Source: Komagataeibacter nataicola (GTDB taxonomy: Bacteria; Pseudomonadota; Alphaproteobacteria; Acetobacterales; Acetobacteraceae). Taken from it: a stretch of 56,663 nucleotides of DNA. How positions within the stretch are numbered: the first letter of the stretch is position 1; every line of letters starts with the position of its first letter. The DNA lies in assembly GCF_003207795.1 (NCBI RefSeq), contig NZ_NIRT01000021.1, positions 1 through 56,663 on the forward strand, written 5' to 3'. The translations under genes and the position numbers were made by a program. The notes beneath the pieces are model-generated. The model ran no database searches and had not been told where the DNA came from. It saw only the letters and a list, made by a program, of their open reading frames with translations. Shown here piece by piece: positions 3,695-55,827 of the stretch.

Positions 3695-4549
3695 ATGAAG
3701 CGCGTCATCATATCCGCCGACGATTTCGGCCTGTCGGAAGAAGTCAACGAGGCCATCGAGATCGCCCATCGGGATGGATTGCTGTCAACCGCGAGCCTGA
3801 TGGTTTCCGGCCCCGCCGCCGCCGATGCCGTACGCCGCGCCAAAAAGCTGCCTGACCTGCGGGTGGGGCTGCACCTTGTAGCCATTGAAGGCCCGGCCAC
3901 CCTGCCGCCTGCCGATATTCCGCTGCTGGTTCCGCAGGATGGTCTGTTCCCCTCCGACCAGCTCAAGCGGGGGGTGGAATATTTCTTTCGGCCTGCCGTG
4001 CGGCGTGAACTGGCTGCCGAGATCGAGGCGCAGTTCCGCGCCTTTGCCGCAACCGGGCTTATGCTGGACCACGCCAACGCGCACAAGCACATGCATCTGC
4101 ACCCCACCGTGGGGCGCTACCTGATTGAAAGCGGCCTGCGCCATGGCCTGCGCGCGGTGCGCGTGCCGCTCGAGCCACCCGAGCCACTCCGCGCGGCCGG
4201 CACCTATGCCGACACGCTGGGCGATGCCGCCCTGCGGCGGTGGACCGGGCTTTTACGCCATCAGGCGCATAAGGCCGGGCTGGTGACGAATGACTGGTGC
4301 TTTGGCCTGGCATGGAGCGGGCACATGACGACCGAGCGCGTCTCGGCGCTGGCCGCCCACCTGCCTGATGGTCTGTCGGAAATCTATTTCCACCCGGCCA
4401 CGGCCAAGAACAGACTGTTACAGCGGCTCATGCCGACTTACGAACATGAGGCCGAGTTCCGCACGCTCTGCGCGCCGGGCTTTCGCTCGGGGCTGGCTCA
4501 TGCGGGAGCTGTACCCACGACATGGACCGATGTTGCTAGCGGGCGTTAA
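3695..4549 (+). CDS. hpnK: Hopanoid YdjC/ChbG-like deacetylase HpnK
   Basis: A 284-residue carbohydrate deacetylase of the YdjC/ChbG family. HpnK is the family proposed to remove the acetyl group from N-acetylglucosaminyl-hopanoid before HpnJ makes the cyclitol ether. Visible signatures are the N-terminal metal/catalytic pair D9-D10 in SADDFGLS and the histidine cluster starting D125-H126 with H130, H132, H134 and H136, as in YdjC enzymes. The protein looks cytoplasmic. No clear Shine-Dalgarno is seen before the ATG at 3695, and a terminator lies just upstream, so it may be expressed at a low level by read-through. A dispersed repeat element follows its stop. Confidence 0.88.
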   Translation: MKRVIISADDFGLSEEVNEAIEIAHRDGLLSTASLMVSGPAAADAVRRAKKLPDLRVGLHLVAIEGPATLPPADIPLLVPQDGLFPSDQLKRGVEYFFRPAVRRELAAEIEAQFRAFAATGLMLDHANAHKHMHLHPTVGRYLIESGLRHGLRAVRVPLEPPEPLRAAGTYADTLGDAALRRWTGLLRHQAHKAGLVTNDWCFGLAWSGHMTTERVSALAAHLPDGLSEIYFHPATAKNRLLQRLMPTYEHEAEFRTLCAPGFRSGLAHAGAVPTTWTDVASGR

Positions 4550-4560
4550 ACGGACGGAAT

Positions 4561-4646
4561 AAAAGGTTTTGGTAAAGCTTTTTTTCACAAAAAAGCTTTA
4601 AAAGAACGCCGCCTTTTTAAAAAAAGGCGGCACCCAAAAACTTTTT
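4561..4646 (+). repeat. Dispersed two-hairpin repeat, complete copy A
   Basis: An 86-bp intergenic element between convergent hpnK and trxA. It starts AAAAGGTTTTGG and ends CCCAAAAACTTTTT, near-inverted ends. Inside are two hairpins: AAAGCTTTTTT against AAAAAAGCTTT (about 4575-4600), then GCCGCCTTTTT against AAAAGGCGGC (about 4609-4631). Related copies occur at 22951, 51761 and, decayed or partial, at 15626, 20289, 31316, 54367 and 55777. Both hairpins carry A/T runs on both sides, so each can serve as a bidirectional terminator here. Confidence 0.8.
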
Positions 4647-4654
4647 ACTGATAA

Positions 4655-4984
4655 TCAGCCGAGCTTGGATTCAACCCATGCCTTGAGCTGGCTCTTGGGC
4701 ATCGCACCGGTCTGCTGGGCTACGGGCTTGCCATCCTTGAACAGGACCAGAGTGGGAATGCTGCGTACGCCATATTCGTTGGGGGTGCGGAGATTATTGT
4801 CGATATCGACCTTGGCCACGGTCATGCGGCCCTTGAACTCGCCGCCGAGCTCTTCCAGCGCGGGCGCGATCATTTTGCACGGGCCGCACCATTCAGCCCA
4901 GAAATCAACCAGAACCGGCTCCTTCGAGTCGAGCACCAGCGTCTTGAACTGGTCATCGCTGACCGCAATCGTGTTTTCACCCAT
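4655..4984 (-). CDS. trxA: Thioredoxin
   Basis: A 109-residue cytoplasmic thioredoxin, the general dithiol reductant kept reduced by thioredoxin reductase. The redox centre is C33-G-P-C36 in FWAEWCGPCKMIAP, and the cis-proline motif is in VRSIPTLVLFKDG. Length equals the family's usual 105-110. The ATG at 4984 (MGENT) is chosen; a GTG one codon earlier at 4987 is possible, and a GGAG lies about 9 bases upstream of the ATG. The gene lies 79 bases downstream of addA on the same strand, the usual alphaproteobacterial addB-addA-trxA order, so it may share the operon or have its own promoter in the gap. Confidence 0.96.
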   Translation of the reverse strand: MGENTIAVSDDQFKTLVLDSKEPVLVDFWAEWCGPCKMIAPALEELGGEFKGRMTVAKVDIDNNLRTPNEYGVRSIPTLVLFKDGKPVAQQTGAMPKSQLKAWVESKLG

Positions 4985-5063
4985 CACTCAATGCTCCATT
5001 TACGGCAGCCATGGCTGCCTGTGTCCTTGCGTCCTGCTGACATGGCAATCGCCCGGCACGCGG

Positions 5064-15597: not shown

Positions 15598-15625
15598 AGT
15601 CAGGCAGGCCTTTCATCACCACAAA

Positions 15626-15660
15626 CGCCGCCTTCGCTGAAAAAAGGCGGCGCCCAAAAA
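15626..15660 (+). repeat. Partial dispersed repeat (GCCGCC half)
   Basis: CGCCGCC at 15626-15632 pairs with GGCGGCG at 15646-15652 and runs into CCCAAAAAAAA, the same arrangement as the right half of the element at 4561. The AAGCTT hairpin is missing. It lies directly after dadA and directly before an unrelated terminator hairpin. Confidence 0.55.
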
Positions 15661-20288: not shown

Positions 20289-20337
20289 AGCTGCTTTCCC
20301 GAGCGTTTTCAAAGCAGCTTCACCAGAAGATTCTTTA
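20289..20337 (-). repeat. Possible decayed half copy of the dispersed repeat
   Basis: AGCTGCTTT (20289-20297) pairs perfectly with AAAGCAGCT (20311-20319) and is followed by TCACCAGAAGATTCTTTAT, which resembles the AGCTTCACCAAAAACTTTTA end of the copy at 22951. The match is loose; it may only be a hairpin downstream of gcrA. Confidence 0.3.
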
Positions 20338-22931: not shown

Positions 22932-22950
22932 ACACCTGTTTGAAAATGAC

Positions 22951-23033
22951 AAAAGTTTCTGTATTCCGCCTTTTTTTCAAAAAGGTAGCGTTCTTCTGAA
23001 GCTTTTTGAAAAAAGCTTCACCAAAAACTTTTA
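22951..23033 (-). repeat. Dispersed two-hairpin repeat, complete copy C (inverted)
   Basis: The element is in the opposite orientation to the copy at 4561. On the plus strand it begins AAAAGTTTCTG, then a CCGCC-T-run with matching A-run-GG hairpin, then GAAGCTTTTT against AAAAAGCTTC, and ends CACCAAAAACTTTTA. It sits between convergent queF and atpC, just before a separate bidirectional terminator. The GCCGCC hairpin has point changes (GGTAGC), so its stem is weaker than in copy A. Confidence 0.8.
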
Positions 23034-23085
23034 TATGTTTTCAGCAATACTTTCGGGGTCTGACGGTCTGGTCGCCCCATAACAG

Positions 23086-23110
23086 AAAAGCGCCCCGTAA
23101 GGGCGCTTTT
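23086..23110. terminator. Bidirectional terminator between queF and atpC
   Basis: AAAAGCGCCC (23086-23095) and GGGCGCTTTT (23101-23110) form a perfect 10-bp stem with a CGTAA loop, with A and T runs included on the two sides, serving queF (plus) and the atp operon (minus). Confidence 0.9.
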
Positions 23111-23167
23111 CATGTCCGGCAATACACCCGCTTCCATGCAGGAAGTGGATGCAGGCTGGCGATCGTG

Positions 23168-31278: not shown

Positions 31279-31315
31279 ATGCCCGGATGGCTGCGCCTCT
31301 TCACCAGCCATGATA

Positions 31316-31368
31316 AATTTCCGGGGACCGCCTTTTTTCCGCAAAGGCGGCGTTCTTTCAACGCTTTT
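31316..31368 (-). repeat. Partial dispersed repeat, copy D
   Basis: AAATTTCCGGGGACCGCC, then a T-run/GCAAAGGCGGC hairpin and GTTCTTTCAACGCTTTTA match the inverted form of the element with the AAGCTT hairpin cut short. It abuts the stop codon of pqiC (31370-31372) and could act as its terminator. Confidence 0.6.
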
Positions 31369-51715: not shown

Positions 51716-51760
51716 CCAAAGCAATTATTCAATAATAAAAACAGATCACTGATAAAAAAG

Positions 51761-51840
51761 AAAAATTTCTGGTGAAGCTTTTTCAAAAAGCGTCGAAAGA
51801 ATACCGCCTTTTTAAAAAAGGCGGCACCCGGAAACTTTTA
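51761..51840 (+). repeat. Dispersed two-hairpin repeat, complete copy B
   Basis: Starts AAAAATTTCTGGTGAAGC, with an AAGCTTTTT/AAAAAGCG hairpin, then GAATACCGCCTTTTT against AAAAAGGCGGC, and ends CACCCGGAAACTTTTA. Same orientation as the copy at 4561. It lies between the convergent orphan gene and TonB receptor gene. Confidence 0.8.
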
Positions 51841-51864
51841 CGCTTTCAGCAAGGCTTCAGTTTA

Positions 51865-54084
51865 TCAGAAGTTCTGCGAAATACCGGTCAGGATCGTGCG
51901 CCGCAACCCGTATTGCGGGGCGCCCACGCCAATGCCCGTGCCGCTGCGCAGCATGTAGGGATGGTCGAACAGGTTGGTCACATCCAGCCGCAGCTGCGTG
52001 GTGCGCAGGAAGCGCGAATGGAACAGGTCACGGAAGGACTGCACAAGGGCCAGGTTGAACGTGGCGTATTGTGGGATCACGCCGCCATTGGGCACGGTGT
52101 CGGTATCCTGCCGCAGGCCGCTGCCATAGACCATGGTGGCCGAAAGCAGCGTGGGATGCCCGGTGCGGTGGAAGAAGGTGTAGGACCCACCGGCGGACGC
52201 GGTCCAGCGCTGGTCATGGTCAAGATGCACCCAGTGCTGGCTGATATAGTTGAGGTCATCGGGGGCAAAGTTGAACTGCGCGCTGGTAATGTCCTTGCCG
52301 ATGGCGCGCGACCACGCAAAATTGCCGTAAAGCGACAGCGGCCCGCGATCGTAGGAGGTCGAGACCTCATAGCCATTCACCTGCCCGCGCCGGTAATTGA
52401 AGCCCGAGAGGATGATGGGTGCGCCGAACTGCCCCTCGTCAATCAGGTTATGGGCCAGCTTGTAATAGGCATCGAACGACACGCGCCAGCCGGGCAGGAT
52501 GACCTGCTCGATCCCGGCATCGAAGTAATGGTCACGCTCGGCCTTGACCGTGCTGCTGCCGGTGCCGGGCGCAGCGCCCGATGTACCTGCGAACTGCTGC
52601 AAGTCGGCCCCCCCCACCACCTCGAAGGGCGGGGGCGTGAAGTAGCGGGAGTAGCCTGCATGCAGCGTTGCCCCCTTCCACGCGCGCCACACCACGTTGA
52701 TGCGCGGGCTGAGCTGGTGCTCGTTGGTGTATTCACCCACGCCATCAAAACGCAGGCCGTAATTGACCGTGACATTACGCAGCGGCCGCCATTCGTCCTG
52801 CACGTACAGGCCATAAACATCGCCCGTGCGGCCATTGCCGGTATGGATGGACTGGAGTGCCCCCGTGTCGGTGTTCTGCACCAGTGAATCGGCCTTGGTG
52901 ATGTTGCGCTCGGCAAAGACCTGAAAGCCGAAGCGCACGGTGTGATCTGGCCGCACGCGCCAGGTCACGTCGCTCTGGGTGCCGGTTGACATGACCGAGC
53001 GCTCGGCATGCTGGCTTATGCCCATATAGGCCAGGTCGCCCAGGTTGGGGTCGGGGCTGTAGCCGAGGCTGCTGTAGCGCGAGAACACCGATGTCTGGAG
53101 CGAGAAGGCCCCGATCTCCTTCTGCAGCGACAGGATGCCGAAATCGGTGATCTGCTTCTGGCGTTCATTGAGGCTGGAGGCGCGCGGTGCACCGGGCACC
53201 GATACGCACGCCGAATCATCACCCGCGCAGGGGAAGGTCTGGCCACCAATATTGGGCAACTGGTACTCGGCGTTCGACACGCCAGCAATCAGGCTCAGCC
53301 GCGTGTTTTCATCCACTGTATAACGCAGGTGGCCGAGGAAATGGTACTGGTTGCTCAGGTCATGCGGCGCATTGAACGAGGGCGTGGTGTTCTCGATGCC
53401 CACCCGGTCATGCACGTAATCGGCGGTGAGGAAGTAATCCCACCTGCCATGCTGCCCCCCATACTGCGCGGAGGGGAAGAAATAGTCACGCGCGCCACCG
53501 TAGATGGACACGTTGCCACCCTTGTTGGTGGCGCCATTCTTTGTGGTGATGTCCACCACCGCAGCCTGCAGGAAGCCGTACTGCACCGGCAATGCACCGG
53601 TGGAAAGCGACATGTTATCGGCAAAGCGGGTCATGAGTGTCTGGCCGAACACGTTCATGCCTTCGGGCAACTGCACGCCATCAAGGCGGAACTGCACCTC
53701 GTTATGGTCGCCACGCACGTGGATCTGGCCGTAACTGTCCTGCGCCACACCGGGGGCCTGCAACAGCACGCTGTTCAGCGCGGCATTGTCGCCGCCGGGA
53801 ATGGTCTCGATCGCCTTGCGGCTGAAGGCATGCACCGTTGCCCCCGTGGAGGGCTGCAACTGCACGCGCGCGCGGTCGAGACGCGCGGTGACGGTCATGG
53901 CTTCGGGCGCTGATGAGGGGCGGCTGAGCGCCTGTGCCTGCTCGGTGGTGGCCTGCGGGTCATCAGGCGTTGTGACTGTGGCAGGCACGCCCTGTGCAAG
54001 GGCGGTCGTAACAGGAGTCAGCGCGGTTATGGCCGCGAGCATGGCACGGGAAAGGGAACGGGGAAAAAACCATAGGCGCGTCAT
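51865..54084 (-). CDS. TonB-dependent outer-membrane receptor
   Basis: 739 residues from the ATG at 54084. Signal peptide (FFPRSLSRAMLAAITALTPV, cleavage after ALA/Q near 31), plug domain (about 70-190: AFSRKAIETIPGGDNAALNS, IHVRGDHNEVQFRLDGVQLP) and a 22-strand barrel ending in QNF, a typical C-terminal aromatic. It imports a ligand using TonB energy; the ligand is not evident. No Fur-type box was seen upstream and no siderophore genes are adjacent. The frame is open to 54240, but the extra 52 residues are not signal-like. Short N-terminal TonB box is unclear. Confidence 0.92.
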   Translation of the reverse strand: MTRLWFFPRSLSRAMLAAITALTPVTTALAQGVPATVTTPDDPQATTEQAQALSRPSSAPEAMTVTARLDRARVQLQPSTGATVHAFSRKAIETIPGGDNAALNSVLLQAPGVAQDSYGQIHVRGDHNEVQFRLDGVQLPEGMNVFGQTLMTRFADNMSLSTGALPVQYGFLQAAVVDITTKNGATNKGGNVSIYGGARDYFFPSAQYGGQHGRWDYFLTADYVHDRVGIENTTPSFNAPHDLSNQYHFLGHLRYTVDENTRLSLIAGVSNAEYQLPNIGGQTFPCAGDDSACVSVPGAPRASSLNERQKQITDFGILSLQKEIGAFSLQTSVFSRYSSLGYSPDPNLGDLAYMGISQHAERSVMSTGTQSDVTWRVRPDHTVRFGFQVFAERNITKADSLVQNTDTGALQSIHTGNGRTGDVYGLYVQDEWRPLRNVTVNYGLRFDGVGEYTNEHQLSPRINVVWRAWKGATLHAGYSRYFTPPPFEVVGGADLQQFAGTSGAAPGTGSSTVKAERDHYFDAGIEQVILPGWRVSFDAYYKLAHNLIDEGQFGAPIILSGFNYRRGQVNGYEVSTSYDRGPLSLYGNFAWSRAIGKDITSAQFNFAPDDLNYISQHWVHLDHDQRWTASAGGSYTFFHRTGHPTLLSATMVYGSGLRQDTDTVPNGGVIPQYATFNLALVQSFRDLFHSRFLRTTQLRLDVTNLFDHPYMLRSGTGIGVGAPQYGLRRTILTGISQNF

Positions 54085-54496
54085 GGCGGAAAGGCTCGCA
54101 TCCGGTGAGGTGGTTTCGGGAGGCGCAGCTTTATTTGGTACAATATAACATAACAATATGGAAAAACCGTCGCCTTCGCCGGGCCTGCCAAATGTTGTAT
54201 TTATGCAACAGAACCGTTCGGCCAAAAGGGCACAGCACATAACCGCTTCTCCCCAAAACGGGAAGCCGCCCTATTGCGCCATCTTCTGGTGGTTCATTAT
54301 GGTTTTTGATCCTATTTTAAAACGATATTATTAAATATACATATTTTATTTATTCTGAAATTAAAGATATTTTCTGGTAAAGCATTATTCACGACACTTC
54401 AGTAAACGCCGTATTTTGAAAAAAGATGTCCCAAAACTTTTATTAATTCTCATCAATGCATTATTTTAAAATACTATATTAACAAAGGAACCTGAC
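54085..54496. other. AT-rich intergenic region upstream of the TonB receptor gene
   Basis: About 410 bases without a gene. CAATAT occurs as a direct repeat at 54141 and 54154 within the likely receptor promoter. A decayed repeat element is at 54367-54442. 54300-54370 is strongly AT-rich, unlike the genome average. Confidence 0.55.
54367..54442 (+). repeat. Dispersed repeat, decayed copy E
   Basis: ATATTTTCTGGTAAAGC, a broken first hairpin (ATTATTC), AAACGCCGTATTTTGAAAAA and GTCCCAAAACTTTTA follow the element from end to end at the expected spacing, but both hairpins are mutated. It lies 55 bases before the DUF1963 gene. Confidence 0.6.
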
Positions 54497-55637: not shown

Positions 55638-55776
55638 TCTTCGTGGAACAGACTGATTCCACAGCCTTATTTTACGGTCAAAGAAACTACCAACCAGAAT
55701 GCCCTTCTACCTGCCCCTCTTTACGCCATCGCAAAAGGCTCATCGTCCGGGTCCGTAGCAAGGCACGGGCAGGGAA

Positions 55777-55812
55777 TGTTTCTGGCGCAGCTTTTTTCAA
55801 AAAGCCCTGTCA
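55777..55812 (+). repeat. Dispersed repeat, half copy F
   Basis: ATGTTTCTGGCGCAGCTTTTTTCAAAAAGC matches the left end and first hairpin of the element; the GCCGCC half is missing. It lies just before the TetR stop (55828) and can terminate that minus-strand gene. Confidence 0.55.
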
Positions 55813-55827
55813 GAGCACGCCCTTACC

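Follow-up and report, generated by a model that had tools for sequence, protein, structure and literature searches.

A short repeat dispersed through the window, the whole 56,663-bp stretch analysed here and one contig of a 3.67-Mb draft genome of Komagataeibacter nataicola (105 contigs), is probably the two-hairpin core of a non-autonomous miniature inverted-repeat transposable element (MITE) of the IS5 group, whose outer arms erode while the core persists behind stop codons and is flipped at some sites. The transposon part of this explanation is well supported; the core's fate, its function and its possible independent mobility are what we infer.

The core and its copies

Three full-length copies are present in the window at the places and in the orientations given in the initial annotation, with covariance model (R1) scores of 100.8, 93.2 and 92.3 bits (E <= 2e-20 in the window). 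R1 and the HMM were built from the same 29 copies, the three full ones of the window included, so that these match by construction, and the finds elsewhere in the genome are mostly independent of model building. The best-scoring copy (4559-4647, + strand; 100.8 bits) is a full-length core consisting of a terminal stem, an AAGC hairpin and a GCC hairpin; it is flanked by the stop codons of two genes, identified by Pfam as YdjC-like and thioredoxin, and no outer arms were seen around it. The second (22937-23064, - strand; 92.3 bits) comprises a core at 22949-23034 and remnants of both outer arms, covers positions 16-137 of the full-unit model, and is located between the stop of a QueF-like gene and a separate terminator-like hairpin. 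This hairpin (23085-23111) is a strong inverted repeat, GAAAAGCGCCCCGTAAGGGCGCTTTTC, and a similar one was seen by eye in 19 of 19 aligned genus genomes, whether the element was present or not. The third copy (51757-51858, + strand; 93.2 bits), with its core at 51759-51841 and a right-arm remnant (full-unit model positions 40-144), is at the 3' end of a TonB-dependent receptor gene (51865-54240, - strand). Fold z-scores of the three full copies were -5.9 (the copy at 4559-4647), -4.0 and -2.9, and at the last of these values 2 of 200 shuffles folded equally well.

The copy described as decayed proved real (54351-54471, + strand; 30.9 bits; nhmmer E 2.9e-5). It retains arm remnants on both sides, matching full-unit model positions 30-153 (E 3.9e-10), and lies between divergent genes. 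The halves annotated at 15626, 31316 and 55777, and the possible one at 20289, were also recovered, more weakly, with nhmmer E-values that refer to 2.0 Mb scanned together: the GCC hairpin at 15623-15660 (+ strand; E 0.002), the GCC hairpin side at 31314-31368 (- strand; E 1.4e-7), the left end with the AAGC hairpin at 55775-55821 (+ strand; E 2.5e-4), and a weak left end with the AAGC hairpin at 20295-20334 (- strand; E 0.0065).

The R1 search of the genome gave at least 150 places at E 1.3e-4 or better. A profile run over 824 kb of the source genome found 112 copies at E <= 0.01, about one per 7 kb, 70 of them covering at least 70 model positions; extrapolation of this density gives some 500 copies per genome. 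When 150 Acetobacteraceae genomes were searched, 20 matched at 1e-4; the strong matches were in the sample's three genomes of the source genus and in two of a genus (g73) that, from named loci with strong matches, appears to be Novacetimonas, the others being weaker. The nearest named relatives of one window protein were from Komagataeibacter melomenusus and K. xylinus (95-96% identity). On plasmids the core is rare: at E <= 1e-4 it occurs in 6 of 72,556 records, at 1-5 places in each, and on these records, of 43-260 kb, it is sparser than on most contigs examined.

Oriented copies read, in order, GATAAAAGTTTTTGGTG, an AAGCTT-type hairpin, a short linker, a GCCGCC-type hairpin and CACCCAAAAACTTTTATC. 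As the ends of the consensus core pair, either strand forms a three-way branch, and the full copies of the window fold likewise. Eight or more terminal pairs form in 82 of 98 copies taken from two genomes, and 67 of the 82 have exactly two hairpins as well. In their alignment 94.9% of cells pair, and changes on both sides occur in 15 of 23 pairs, against 3.9 (sd 1.4) in shuffled and 4-9 in slid controls, in an alignment that was fitted with the structural model and leans towards that structure; template switching itself could produce paired changes in the core. The counts of wobble cells, which overall would hint at a strand bias (109 G-U vs 58 A-C), have the opposite sign in helix 3 (20 to 31). 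Membership of an Rfam RNA family was rejected: across the whole window only 3 tRNAs reached the gathering score and the core had no match, and at 11 loci searched with an E-value threshold the weak matches at the element all fell far below the gathering scores.

The ends, the linker and both hairpins are thus common to the copies over 85 positions at no fewer than 150 places, and neither outcome named beforehand as speaking against a family, generic terminators sharing no ends beyond the hairpins or a lack of copies elsewhere in the genome, was observed. That the copies are ordinary intrinsic terminators grown alike by convergence, belonging to no repeat family, is scarcely credible: their location after stops and between convergent genes and their T-rich tail would suit such an origin, but not the extent of the shared sequence, nor an insertion for which the empty site is known (below).

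The complete unit and its IS5-type relatives

A plasmid copy was the lead to longer, arm-bearing copies. Complete copies measure about 160 bp from the outer repeat GAGRCTGTTTGAAAA to the outer repeat TTTTCAAACARTCTC, and in all those examined the arms enclose the core in a constant orientation; in the genome they are far fewer than the cores. Hence the 86-bp element of the initial annotation is a genuine repeat but represents the core only, and its near-inverted ends, which had been read as those of a transposon, are not the termini, the true ends lying about 40 bp outside, while the proposed MITE class stands.

Target duplications were indeed detected. Identical flanking triplets, all of the form TNA, border 13 of 20 full-length copies, the 12 best-scoring included; at the other 7 the triplets do not match, which counts against the MITE explanation. 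One of the 13 (L364, G135:C2:39169-39330) has the left flank of the insertion on contig C60 (L317) and the right flank of that on contig C29 (L305) of the source genome. Since it joins the flanks of two sites it is a recombination product and not an independent case, so that the independent duplications number 12 of 19. At this locus two unit copies, or their surroundings, recombined and the replicon was rearranged. The C29 insertion has an empty site in six Komagataeibacter plasmid records from relatives. Each aligns over the full length of the joined flank (92 bases) at 97.8-98.9% identity, and a single TTA occupies the site in the one record read.

The unit is too short for a transposase-sized frame, and an IS5-family transposase would move it in trans. 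A candidate relative was found in another genome (G060), an 883-bp insertion sequence (IS) that ends in GAGCCTGTTTGRAAA and encodes an IS5-family transposase (PF01609, PF13340; NF033580). Plasmids of Novacetimonas, K. xylinus, Gluconobacter and Lichenicola carry full-length homologues; homologues are annotated IS5 or, the more distant ones, IS12528. Its ends and those of the unit, GAGCCTGTTTGRAAA and GAGRCTGTTTGAAAA, are similar over about 15 bp, not exact. Members of the IS1031/IS12528 group make 3-bp TNA target duplications; among six IS copies examined here, T-N-A triplets were present on both sides in five and were identical in two. The MITE unit thus resembles this group in the ends of the closest relative, in its flanking T-N-A triplets and in the genera that carry it, and differs in that the group members carry a transposase, in place of which the unit holds the two-hairpin core. 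Other members have different ends, namely GAACCTG in N. hansenii, GAGCCCTTTTGG in IS12528 of G. oxydans and GAGCCTGATCC in a copy of IS1031A.

The search for a transposase with matching ends yielded an IS5-family IS with similar ends and none with exactly those of the unit (GAGACTGTTTGAAAA): one IS1031A copy and 30 IS5-type loci of 86 matches contained no end pair resembling it. This result and the identical triplets at just two of the six IS copies also weigh against the MITE explanation. The MITE label is nonetheless right, because the outer repeats are like those of an IS5-family IS, the target duplications are TNA and an empty site exists.

Larger units of 2.7-3.6 kb ending in GTGACTGTTTGAAAA, close to the ends of the MITE unit, were observed at L368 and L374 (G160) and at L380 (G060); the G160 unit with these ends contains an IS5-type transposase. 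On N. hansenii plasmid p1 an IS630-family element (L301:2454-3783) directly adjoins a complete 162-bp unit, and the same IS630 occurs elsewhere on other Komagataeibacter plasmids. It was rejected as the mover of the core, its ends (about ACTATGGGCTAT) being different from those of the unit.

The initial annotation had left the choice between a MITE and the REP/BIME class, and it is the former, of the IS5 kind, that agrees with the ends, the TNA duplications and the empty site. Repeats of the REP/BIME/REPIN type are likewise extragenic and palindromic, and a family of this kind spread by a RAYT (Y1) transposase would account for the high copy number, the hairpins and the armless copies without visible target duplication; it is nevertheless very improbable here. 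The Y1/RAYT profile PF01797 had no match in the source genome (a draft of 105 contigs), the same profile matching 5 of 14 control genomes, and among nine related genomes it matched in one, at an IS200/RAYT-like Y1 transposase (L392, G142:C11:52773-53135). In addition, a REP unit, a palindrome of 20-40 bp characterised by a GTAG/CGTC tag, is far shorter than the core, which alone spans 85 model positions, and the repeat, 86-160 bp in length, has IS5-type transposon ends and TNA duplications.

Armless copies and cores in other genera

Flank scores divided 163 copies into 115 with neither arm, 28 with one and 20 with both. In 4 of 14 comparisons with another genome a copy with both arms was missing there, as against 1 of 13 for one-armed copies and 3 of 85 for armless ones (both-armed vs armless, Fisher 0.007, for comparisons that share sites and are not independent), and the arm-bearing copies look younger than the armless ones. 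The flanks of armless copies have an A-rich stretch on the left and a T-rich one on the right, resembling the inner arms. After insertion, then, the outer arms would erode and the core would stay where it is harmless or useful. The best-conserved third of the cores departs from this picture, since 39 of its 50 members have neither arm, the opposite of simple decay with age. Taken by itself the armless majority has neither IS terminal repeats nor a target duplication, and its members are classed as cores, not as complete MITEs.

A different origin has thus to be weighed, in which the two-hairpin core is an old, Acetobacteraceae-wide mobile element that makes no target duplications and of which an IS5-type unit of Komagataeibacter captured one; we retain it tentatively, as possible although unlikely. 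The armless state of the best cores speaks for it and against the MITE explanation, as does the site at 4561, where the bases outside the core sum, by eye, to about the whole outgroup spacer, as would result from insertion of a bare core. So do copies in other genera. Four genomes (G140, G020, G119 and G145), with 30 to 129 matches each (one copy may count on both strands), have cores with like ends (AAAAGTTTTTTGG...CCAAAAACTTTT) and other hairpins, some cores of one genome being identical or near-identical, and GAGACTG arms were absent from the copies read. In G140 the first hairpin varies among copies by matched changes on both sides. As these cores have like ends and no arms, the core may also move alone.

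Several results run counter to this origin. Direct repeats were sought at 96 core-only copies in 448 settings (7 lengths and 8 x 8 offsets) and none stood out (best z 2.7), and 192 settings gave no convincing inverted repeat at such copies. The Y1 transposase is scarce, with no match in the source genome and one among nine relatives, and the four genomes of other genera had no PF01797 match. Arm-bearing copies are the ones more often missing from relatives, and the A/T-rich flanks that recall the inner arms persist around armless copies. In its widest form, the proposal would be of branched elements mobile throughout the Acetobacteraceae, with constant ends and exchangeable hairpins, spreading by themselves without target duplications or a Y1 transposase, landing close to stops between convergent genes, flipping in place and, in Komagataeibacter, also packaged between ends of the IS5 type; this we regard as doubtful.

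Gene ends, in-place flips and related repeats

The preferred explanation, an IS5-group MITE with a persisting core, would have the core retained close behind stop codons, above all between convergent genes. Among 151 full copies, 85 were between convergent genes, 61 between co-directional and 4 between divergent ones, one was at an edge and none was inside a gene, as compared with 263 convergent (15%), 1186 co-directional and 260 divergent adjacent gene pairs in the background; genes were taken from a purpose-written caller, and since orthologues are among the copies, which were drawn from four genomes, the positional p-values are too small. The earlier statement that copies lie outside genes, mostly between convergent genes or after stops, is borne out in this set, the decayed copy between divergent genes being an exception in the window. 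Convergent copies without arms (69 of 105 armless) were at medians of 7 and 21 bp from the two stops, and those with both arms (8 of 19) at 37.5 and 133.5 bp.

The core is therefore placed where transcripts would end, and a terminator role would fit, as judged by position alone: its A-tract, branched stem and T-tract could end transcripts, or form a 3' barrier, on both strands. Against this part of the explanation, a consensus scan for simple terminators (a G+C-rich stem directly followed by a T-run) gave no site at 4400-5000, the one copy scanned, which is weak evidence because shuffles averaged just 0.7 sites; and the separate terminator-like hairpin beside the copy at 22951 is conserved.

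At site 4561 the element is present in 7 of 19 genus genomes and missing in 12. In G135 its orientation is reversed and the junctions are the same; G165 has an inverted and shortened copy, G163 a shortened one. Among 25 orthologous sites with full-length copies in at least two of four genomes, three contain an inverted pair (5 of 38 pairs), and the junctions of the inverted cores fall at the same base. Inversion had been flagged by script at 11 sites and was accepted at four on sequence inspection, three with full copies and a fourth involving a partial copy; left outside the count were five sites with weak partial copies and C9:3268 with G165, and the flip suggested at C84:2858 with G165 was not accepted, the flanks of this site being unconvincing. 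Core derivatives with one hairpin or with the ends only were also present.

The flips are most simply explained by template switching between the core's own inverted ends during replication, which would turn it in place. Template switching between the arms of an inverted repeat reverses the spacer and keeps the arms, according to two reports (PMC8604942, PMC8794818). The likeness lies in the reversed spacer and retained arms; the loops and spacers described there are of a few bases, whereas here about 55-60 bases with two hairpins are turned.

Selection on the core may operate but is weakly supported, because its conservation is modest: in 33 same-orientation orthologous pairs mean core identity was 0.820, against 0.754 for the 30-bp flanks and 0.789 for unrelated cores (0.917 for aligned 600-bp flanks), and the core was more identical than the 30-bp flank in 21 of the 33. 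Amplification shortly before the species split would explain such identities without strong selection.

Two known families were likened to this one by description, as given in one source (PMC10969869). Correia elements, the MITEs of Neisseria, are also of high copy number and their inversion has been reported, and they are mostly upstream of genes and carry promoters, whereas the two-hairpin copies are at 3' ends; SPRITE is likewise a dispersed terminator-like repeat. No description of the present family was found in the literature, going by titles and abstract openings, and term searches of the available portions of comparative work on Komagataeibacter mobile DNA (PMC6528568, PMC13028821) did not turn it up. 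Taken together, the family is new among IS5-type MITEs, its unusual branched core being kept at gene ends and found flipped in place.

What has been dissected is the apparent dominant repeat of an industrial cellulose producer, at roughly one copy every 7 kb. Whether the core moves alone could be tested in the other genera, and the in-place flips can be counted and may document template switching at bacterial hairpins in nature. Should transcription end at these cores, a good share of the 3' ends in this genome would have come from transposition.
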